Positions 11,205 to 13,565 of a stretch of 37,834 nt of DNA are shown in pieces (the stretch's first letter is position 1; the number at the start of each line of letters is the position of its first letter). This DNA comes from Frankiaceae bacterium (GTDB taxonomy: Bacteria > Actinomycetota > Actinomycetes > JAFAQI01), in contig JAVEEG010000018.1 in assembly GCA_030840585.1 (NCBI GenBank), positions 1 through 37,834 on the forward strand, written 5' to 3'. A program made the translations under genes and the position numbers. The notes under the pieces are model-generated. The model saw only the letters and a list, made by a program, of their open reading frames with translations. It was not told the DNA's origin and ran no database searches.

Positions 11205-11363
11205 GGCGGCATCCTCGCAAATCCGCTGTCCGACGCAGGTTCCGCCGTTCGGCCCAGCGCGGTGCGGCCCGCCCGGCTCGCGTGGATCCGTCCTCGCGGC
11301 GGTGTCAAGGGAGGTTGAGGTGGTCGATGAATTCCCTGCCATGAGGACGGCGAGGAGGACGCG

Positions 11364-11747
11364 ATGACGACAGCGACCGTCGACACGGGGGGCCGGGTGG
11401 GCTGTGTGCATCTGGCGGACGGCGTGGTGGTGCAGTTGGGTGGCACGTTGACGGACGACAACTTGCCGGAGCTGCGCGACGCCCTGCTGTCTCCCTTCGG
11501 GGCTTCGTGCCGGGACGTCGTCGTCGACGCGGGCGAGGTTGAAGATGTGACCGAGTCGGCTCTCGCCGTCCTCGTGGCGGCTAGGGACTGGGCCGAGCAC
11601 AACGGGCGGCGCTTCTTCGTCTCCCGAATGTCGCCGCTGGTCCGCTCCGCGCTCGACATCTGCCAGGTGAAGCTGCCCGAGCTGGGCGGTCGGCCGGGCC
11701 GGACCACCGCGACCGGGATCCCGACCCCCCGCGCCGCCGCCGACTAG
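11364..11747 (+). CDS. STAS-domain protein (anti-sigma factor antagonist-like)
   Basis: 127 residues with a good ribosome-binding site (GAGGAGG) before the ATG. The fold pattern of SpoIIAA-type STAS proteins is visible: VVVQLGGTLTDDNLPELRDALL, then RDVVVDAGEVEDVTESALAVLVAARD. Ser65 in the DVTES segment sits where anti-anti-sigma factors are phosphorylated by their kinase/anti-sigma partner. No partner kinase is encoded nearby. A 97%-identical but broken copy lies at 13266-13538. Its stop is 1 nt from the convergent lipoprotein gene. Confidence 0.82.
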   Translation: MTTATVDTGGRVGCVHLADGVVVQLGGTLTDDNLPELRDALLSPFGASCRDVVVDAGEVEDVTESALAVLVAARDWAEHNGRRFFVSRMSPLVRSALDICQVKLPELGGRPGRTTATGIPTPRAAAD

Positions 11748-11748
11748 G

Positions 11749-12030
11749 TCACATGCCCGCGCGCACCGCTTCGACGTGCGGCTGGTGGCGTAGGCAATTC
11801 AACTTGGAACGGCCGACGTCGGTAGGGATTAGCCAGGTGTTCGAACCAGGGCCTAGCTGTGGGTCGTCGTGAATGCCGCACCGCAAGAGGGTCTGCACCA
11901 CAGCTTCCGGAGATATCCGTTCGTCGAACATCACGTAGTAGCTGTGGTGCGGACCGCAGCCCGTCAGGGTGTAAGCGACCATCGCCAAAGCCAGCATTCG
12001 TCGGCAGGACTGCGCTCGTCCTCCGCTCAT
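11749..12030 (-). CDS. Small putative lipoprotein of unknown function
   Basis: 93 residues. The N-terminus has a basic stretch, a hydrophobic core and a lipobox: RRMLALAMVAYTLTGC, so the mature protein would be lipid-anchored at the cysteine. The mature part has no family I recognise; it includes YYVMFDERISPEAVVQTLLR. The ATG overlaps the stop of the upstream gene (ATGA, 12027-12030), implying translational coupling and joint function. Base composition is lower in GC than the neighbours, suggesting recent acquisition. Confidence 0.7.
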   Translation of the reverse strand: MSGGRAQSCRRMLALAMVAYTLTGCGPHHSYYVMFDERISPEAVVQTLLRCGIHDDPQLGPGSNTWLIPTDVGRSKLNCLRHQPHVEAVRAGM

Positions 12031-12947
12031 CGCACAAGTGGATGAAATTCACCCGGCACGATGCAGTGCCAGGGAATCTCAAAATCGTACTGGGGTGGCA
12101 AGAGATTGATATTCCACTGATTCGCCCATTCAGCCTGGATGGCGTAGTAGTGCCCGTTGGCCGTCTGATTCGCTTGCTGGGCGGCATAGTAAATCGGGAT
12201 GTCCCAAGCACACTTGTCGGCAATCTCGGTTTCTCCACACAACTCAAGGAACGTCAACGACTGCTGTCCGCACCAGCCGAGACCGGTGGGATCGGTCTGC
12301 ATCTCGAAGAACTCGTGCGAGGTGGTGTCGATCGCGAGATCCGCTGGCATGTTATGGCTCGGTGACCATTGGGTGAAACACGATTCCGACGCATACGGGA
12401 TGACGGCGTAAACAAGGTAATCGCTTTCCCCTGAGGGGACTGTGGCTGAGTGCAGGCCGCAGTTCCCCGTGTCGTTACCCCCCGTACAATCGTCAACACC
12501 ACCGCACCACAGTTCGCCCGGCCCTAAGTAGAGCGTGTAGGTGTGCGTCAGGCCACCGGGCCATGCCCATCCATGTCTGAGCGCAACGTCCTTGAATTTG
12601 TTGATCATGTCGATTTCGTTGATGGTCTGCCCCGGGTAGTCGCTGTTGTCGACGTAACTGCCCCCGTAGGTGGGACTTCCGATGTAGTGACGCCCAGTCG
12701 AGTCATCCATGTAGTACTGCCACGTCACTTGGTTAATCGACAATGAAGGCAGATCGCGGAGAAAGCCATCGATGATCGAGGGATACGTCGGAAGTAGATC
12801 TCGTTGGTTCGAAGTGGCCGGTACGGGCGGCAGCCAGAAGACGGCGTAGTTTGTCGCGGCAACCTCGACCGGTCCTCCGTGGTAGTACATGTTCTCTTCT
12901 GCCCCGATTGGGTCGGGAGGGGGCTGAGCCACCCGCGTCGCGGTCAT
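12027..12947 (-). CDS. Main frame of an exported HE-motif protein of unknown function
   Basis: 306 residues from the ATG at 12947. Recognisable pieces are ENMYYHGGPVEV near the N-terminus, several cysteines and DTTSHEFFEMQTDPTG at about two thirds. The HGGPV plus SHE..E..TDP pattern recalls uncharacterised secreted bacterial proteins distantly like plant EXORDIUM/PHI-1; the HE pair could bind a metal (inference). As annotated from this ATG it has no signal peptide. However, the same frame continues upstream through one TAG (13044-13046) to a GTG at 13160 that encodes a clear signal peptide. It may therefore be a pseudogene or use readthrough. Many cysteines and codon use unlike neighbours support export and foreign origin. 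It is coupled to the lipoprotein gene by an ATGA overlap. Confidence 0.65.
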   Translation of the reverse strand: MTATRVAQPPPDPIGAEENMYYHGGPVEVAATNYAVFWLPPVPATSNQRDLLPTYPSIIDGFLRDLPSLSINQVTWQYYMDDSTGRHYIGSPTYGGSYVDNSDYPGQTINEIDMINKFKDVALRHGWAWPGGLTHTYTLYLGPGELWCGGVDDCTGGNDTGNCGLHSATVPSGESDYLVYAVIPYASESCFTQWSPSHNMPADLAIDTTSHEFFEMQTDPTGLGWCGQQSLTFLELCGETEIADKCAWDIPIYYAAQQANQTANGHYYAIQAEWANQWNINLLPPQYDFEIPWHCIVPGEFHPLVR

Positions 12948-13043
12948 CTGCCCGTCAGAGATCCCTCGCCGTGACGCGCCTGATCCTGGATGGTGTGGGG
13001 GCAGCCGCTTCTCTACCCAACCCGGATTACCTACGGCAAGGGC

Positions 13044-13160
13044 CTACCCATGTGCCGCTCGGCTTGCGAGCGCCGCAGGCGCGGGACCTCCGATCACGAG
13101 CCCTACAGGTGGCAGTGCGATCAGGACTGCCGCGATGCGCAGTTGGCGCTGAATCCCCAC
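13044..13160 (-). pseudogene. Signal-peptide leader cut off by an in-frame TAG
   Basis: A GTG at 13160, with GGGGGA 4 nt upstream, starts a 38-residue frame: MGIQRQLRIAAVLIALPPVG, then LVIGGPAPAALA. This is a textbook Sec signal peptide with a likely cleavage after ALA. The frame then meets TAG at 13044-13046 and, in the same phase, runs on without further stops for 32 codons to the ATG at 12947 and through the whole downstream gene. A promoter fits just upstream. The simplest reading is a nonsense mutation in the gene for an exported protein. Confidence 0.7.
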
Positions 13161-13189
13161 AGAATCCCCCAAAGTCGAAGAACACGAGC

Positions 13190-13218
13190 ACCGTAGTTGG
13201 GCGCTTTACCTGCGACAA
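13190..13218 (-). promoter_or_regulatory. Promoter of the exported-protein gene
   Basis: On the minus strand, TTGTCG (13218-13213), a 17-nt spacer and TACGGT (13195-13190) form a good primary-sigma promoter. The transcript would start about 7 nt further on and carry a ~25-nt leader with the GGGGGA ribosome-binding site before the GTG at 13160. Confidence 0.6.
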
Positions 13219-13265
13219 GGTAGGTATTAGGGCAAAAACGGAGTTCGGCGCCCGGGGAGGACGGG

Positions 13266-13538
13266 ATGACGACGGCGACCGTCGACAGCGGGGCCGGGTG
13301 CTTCCTGCCGGGACGTCGTCGTCGACGCGGGCGAGGTTGAAGATGTGACCGAGTCGGCTCTCGCCGTCCTCGTGCCGGCAAGGGACTGGGCCGAGCACAA
13401 CGGGCGGCGCTTCTTCGTCTCCCGAATGTCGCCGCTGGTCCGCTCCGCACTCGACATCTGCCAGGTGAAGCTGCCCGAGCTCGGCGGCCGGCCCGGCCGG
13501 ACCACCGCGATCCCAACCCCCGCGCCGCCAAGGACTGA
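13266..13538 (+). pseudogene. Truncated, frameshifted copy of the STAS gene
   Basis: The ribosome-binding site, ATG (13266) and first ~35 nt match the STAS gene at 11364. Then 103 nt (11400-11502 of the intact copy) are missing, and one further base is lost. The frame is shifted and ends after 24 codons. The rest, equivalent to 11508-11712, is present with about six mismatches in ~205 nt. The conserved region including the phosphorylatable serine is still readable from 13345 in another frame, ending at 13593, but lacks the first half of the domain. Confidence 0.85.
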
Positions 13539-13565
13539 CCCACCACTCCGGCGCCGCCGCGGTGA

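Follow-up and report, generated by a model that had tools for sequence, protein, structure and literature searches.

A secreted EXORDIUM-like protein gene of a Frankiaceae bacterium, probably acquired and inactivated by a single in-frame TAG

Secreted EXORDIUM-like proteins of bacteria are related through the Pfam family Phi_1 (PF04674), to which the plant EXORDIUM proteins belong (phosphate-induced protein 1). Genes that carry a single in-frame stop are also well described in bacteria: many of the genes so interrupted are reported to be under purifying selection still, and read-through of such stops has been argued for bacteria generally (Belinky et al. 2021, PMC7918605). Here we analyze a locus at which the two subjects meet, a gene for an EXORDIUM-like protein with one in-frame TAG, in a window of 37,834 nt (contig JAVEEG010000018.1, positions 1 to 37,834, of the Frankiaceae bacterium assembly GCA_030840585.1). 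The likely explanation is that a dispensable, acquired gene encoding an exported EXORDIUM-like protein has recently suffered one nonsense mutation.

On the minus strand, a GTG at 13160-13158, preceded at a distance of 4-5 nt by GGGGGA (13165-13170), a possible ribosome-binding site, opens a frame that meets a TAG at 13046-13044 after 38 codons. The frame then runs on through 338 open codons to a TGA at 12029-12027, and the TAG is the only disrupted position in 377 codons. The peptide encoded between GTG and TAG (13047-13160) is VGIQRQLRIAAVLIALPPVGLVIGGPAPAALASRAAHG, consisting of a Sec signal peptide, VGIQRQLRIAAVLIALPPVGLVIGGPAPAALA (predicted cleavage after ALA), followed by SRAAHG. The TAG (13044-13046) separates the signal peptide from a low-conservation in-frame linker (12888-13043), and a 306-aa open reading frame annotated from an internal in-frame ATG at 12947 (12027-12947) carries the EXORDIUM-like domain. 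By chance, the frame behind the TAG would stay open this far with a probability of about 6e-5; 8 and 11 stops interrupt the other two frames. The start, the GGGGGA, the TAG, the open frame beyond it and the 306-residue gene from 12947 had been proposed in an earlier note on this DNA, and we find all of them on the minus strand. The promoter proposed there, TTGTCG-17-TACGGT (13190-13218, minus strand), is present but weak: it has 7/12 consensus matches, shuffling the 100 nt upstream produces a match as good in about 15% of cases, and a stricter promoter scan detects none.

The encoded protein is a diverged relative of the secreted EXORDIUM-like (Phi_1) proteins. It retains all 17 invariant columns in an alignment of 16 sequences, including SHExxExxxD, and the family-invariant residues are H166, S210-H211-E212..E215..D219, E241, D244 and C246. 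Phi_1 is matched by 8 of the 16 aligned family members at E 0.01 or better, and the homolog L002 scores 33.5 bits against a cut-off of 25. The window protein itself has no Pfam or NCBIfam match, with no Phi_1 match at E 0.1, and is termed a relative rather than a Pfam member because the PF04674 gathering cut-off is not reached. Its best homologs are 33-38% identical, the linker giving no reliable alignment, and two intact paralogs (L008 and L009) lie in the same genome. When named genomes were scanned with a profile as guide, 32 homolog loci came up, in Frankiales and other actinobacteria, Chloroflexi, Acidobacteria and others, a few of which are records of homologs already found by whole-genome searches. 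Searches for close orthologs gave nothing above ~38% identity among 60 relatives, 395 class-level and 396 phylum-level genomes, or in the phage, plasmid, viral and genome-contig collections searched, which also gave no viral, phage or plasmid match; these searches thus yielded no close ortholog with a sense codon at the position of the TAG. Across the bacterial EXORDIUM-like proteins compared (window 12027-12947 and homologs L084-L111), SHExxExxxD is invariant.

The gene lies in a segment (11748-13252, ~1.5 kb) with a GC content of ~58% vs ~70% around it. Two genomes of the same genus have the flanking genes adjacent to each other and lack the segment at this place. Within it, a 93-aa predicted lipoprotein with the lipobox LTGC is encoded on the minus strand (11749-12030), and no homolog of it was found in 60 relatives. 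Because its start overlaps the stop of the EXORDIUM-like gene (ATGA), the two are probably co-transcribed as a two-gene operon with the EXORDIUM-like gene first. For the low-GC insert with its two-gene operon, no close relative turned up in any collection searched. On the plus strand, an intact gene with a STAS domain (anti-sigma-factor-antagonist-like; 11364-11747) precedes the segment, and a second, truncated copy follows it (13253-13540), in which comparison with the first copy shows a net 104-nt deletion and a frameshift with a stop after 24 codons. The STAS duplication (11351-11747 and 13253-13540) flanks the insert on both sides, and the congeners are single-copy. Since the two copies are 96% identical over 214 nt vs about 80-85% to the STAS genes of the congeners, the duplication appears younger than the split from these two genomes, and the segment would have arrived with it or after it. 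No integrase or transposase was recognized in the part that was inspected. We regard the gene as acquired because both congeners lack it at the syntenic position and because it lies in a low-GC insert and is bordered by a STAS duplication with a frameshifted remnant.

This setting also bears on whether the TAG is real. It could be an error of the consensus, or a variant from a minority strain, in a contig assembled from a metagenome, the gene being intact and secreted: the genome is fragmented (388 contigs, 93% completeness, 7.7% contamination), its nearest named relatives are metagenome assemblies, and the whole frame is affected at one position. However, the low-GC insert beside a degenerate STAS copy makes real inactivation plausible, and single-base consensus errors are rare beside real polymorphism. 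We consider an error or strain variant unlikely, yet the next most probable reading after a nonsense mutation.

The signal peptide at 13160 is no accident. The score of the frame upstream of the conserved domain was reached in 0/3000 dinucleotide shuffles and in 35 of the 10,716 native stretches of 330 nt taken from the window (genuine signal peptides may be among these 35), and the mean hydropathy of its h-region is 2.6 (simple signal-peptide score). Codon-position statistics were also tried for the frame of the N-terminal part and gave no decision: over 13160-12888 they are neutral between two frames, and for the signal-peptide part the +1 frame does as well or somewhat better. The N-terminus is therefore argued from the encoded peptide and from the homologs. 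In 8/8 homologs from relatives, the YHGGPV motif is preceded by a signal peptide and linker, and in 26 of the 32 from other genomes by a recognizable signal peptide, the remaining six including distant or partly matched sequences. The linker before YHGGPV is poorly conserved in most homologs and about 29-102 residues long, a range that includes the ~57 aa between predicted cleavage and motif in the window gene (SRAAHG counted). Because the homologs carry signal peptide and linker in this place, the gene most likely began, in its original form, upstream of the annotated ATG, which also counts in favor of a nonsense mutation; judged from these comparisons, ATG 12947 is probably not the original start. 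The Sec signal peptide of the earlier note is thus borne out by both shuffles and homologs. Orthologs that start at the internal ATG and lack a signal peptide, which the note had named as the contrary observation, are not what we see, as nearly all homologs have both signal peptide and linker, and the data support its view that a single exported gene has been interrupted by an in-frame TAG.

The same evidence makes it improbable that translation truly starts at the internal ATG 12947 (or at 12890) to give a cytoplasmic protein, the upstream signal peptide being a relic or a product of chance. That reading can point to the purine-rich GAGGGA ~14 nt upstream of ATG 12947 and to the annotation of the gene from this codon given in the earlier note, but the homologs have signal peptides and are read as exported, the signal peptide is far from chance, the domain bears cysteine and its neighbor in the operon is predicted to be a lipoprotein.

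TAG serves as a normal terminator in this genome. It ends 17 of 103 long coding-like open reading frames in 238 kb, and in seven of these frames, four of them TAG-ended, the stop is followed immediately by an open coding frame. Genome-wide reassignment of TAG, hinted at by these 4/17, was rejected, as all seven continuations look like distinct neighboring genes (in one case an FtsE-like and then an FtsX-like gene, names by recognition). RF1 is present and scores above its curated cut-off, and no tRNA with anticodon CUA is found among 42 tRNA loci, a set that is incomplete; of the marks of stop-codon reassignment or suppression, namely RF1 loss, a UAG-reading tRNA and rare use of TAG as terminator, none was found. 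No homolog has a stop at the corresponding place (8 from relatives and 32 others).

Functional read-through, by a suppressor tRNA or a leaky context, would allow some full-length secreted protein to be made. The downstream frame is indeed intact with all invariant residues kept, and some bacterial genes with in-frame stops are reported to be under purifying selection (PMC7918605). The RF1, the tRNA set, the ordinary use of TAG and the homologs all stand against it, as does the context GGG-TAG-GCC, which to our knowledge fits no leaky context, and we judge it very improbable. We give slightly less credence still to a TAG that serves as a low-level read-through or switch site, at which little EXORDIUM-like protein would be exported and most translation would yield free signal peptide. 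Of the two alternatives in the earlier note, the recent nonsense mutation is favored and read-through gains no positive support, since TAG is an ordinary stop, RF1 is present, tRNA-CUA is missing from the 42 loci and no homolog has the stop. A nonsense mutation is favored also because all invariant residues are kept and the TAG is the sole disruption.

Under the favored nonsense mutation, the ~1.5-kb insert would have brought a two-gene operon for the secreted EXORDIUM-like protein and the small lipoprotein between two STAS copies, and a single nonsense change would then have severed the signal peptide from the mature domain. Translation begun at GTG 13160 would yield no more than a 38-residue signal-peptide fragment, and any product made from ATG 12947 would have no export signal and stay cytoplasmic. 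We infer that translation ends at the TAG in vivo, that the TAG is of recent origin and that events took this order. The explanation also draws on the two intact paralogs in the same genome; the distance of the best homologs, the unalignable linker, the neutral codon statistics, the incomplete tRNA set and the survey of in-frame stops (PMC7918605) weigh against it. The annotation is corrected accordingly: what is annotated as an open reading frame from 12947 most likely represents the 3' portion of a disrupted gene for a secreted protein and not an intact cytoplasmic protein. In this soil actinobacterium the locus would be a probable case of a gene gained and then left to decay, with a neighboring duplicate decaying too, and it offers no evidence of recoding.

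A sequence-profile search against the PDB found no relative. The predicted model of the window protein (mean pLDDT 73) resembles the catalytic domains of TACE/ADAM and archaemetzincin at a borderline level (Z ~8 to 8.7, rmsd ~4), with zincin-type structural alignments of 140-180 residues at 8-11% identity, and has no Foldseek match at E 0.001 or better. Because of this resemblance and the invariant SHExxExxxD, the EXORDIUM-like family could be metal-dependent hydrolases, which we offer only as a hint; zincin-like metalloproteases have HExxH, whereas the window protein has HExxE.

Compared with bacterial secreted members of the EXORDIUM-like/Phi_1 family, the window protein shares 33-38% identity, an encoded signal peptide, the linker, YHGGPV and SHExxExxTDP, but differs in having no Pfam match, an extra C-terminal tail, several insertions and the interrupting TAG. 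As to export, a Sec signal peptide is encoded, yet the TAG separates it from the domain. In contrast to the genes surveyed in PMC7918605, no orthologous stop of the window gene was found in another species, so that the persistence test used there does not apply. Like the single in-frame-stop genes described in bacteria as pseudogene polymorphisms (PMC7918605), it combines one stop with an otherwise intact frame; the finding is real but ordinary.
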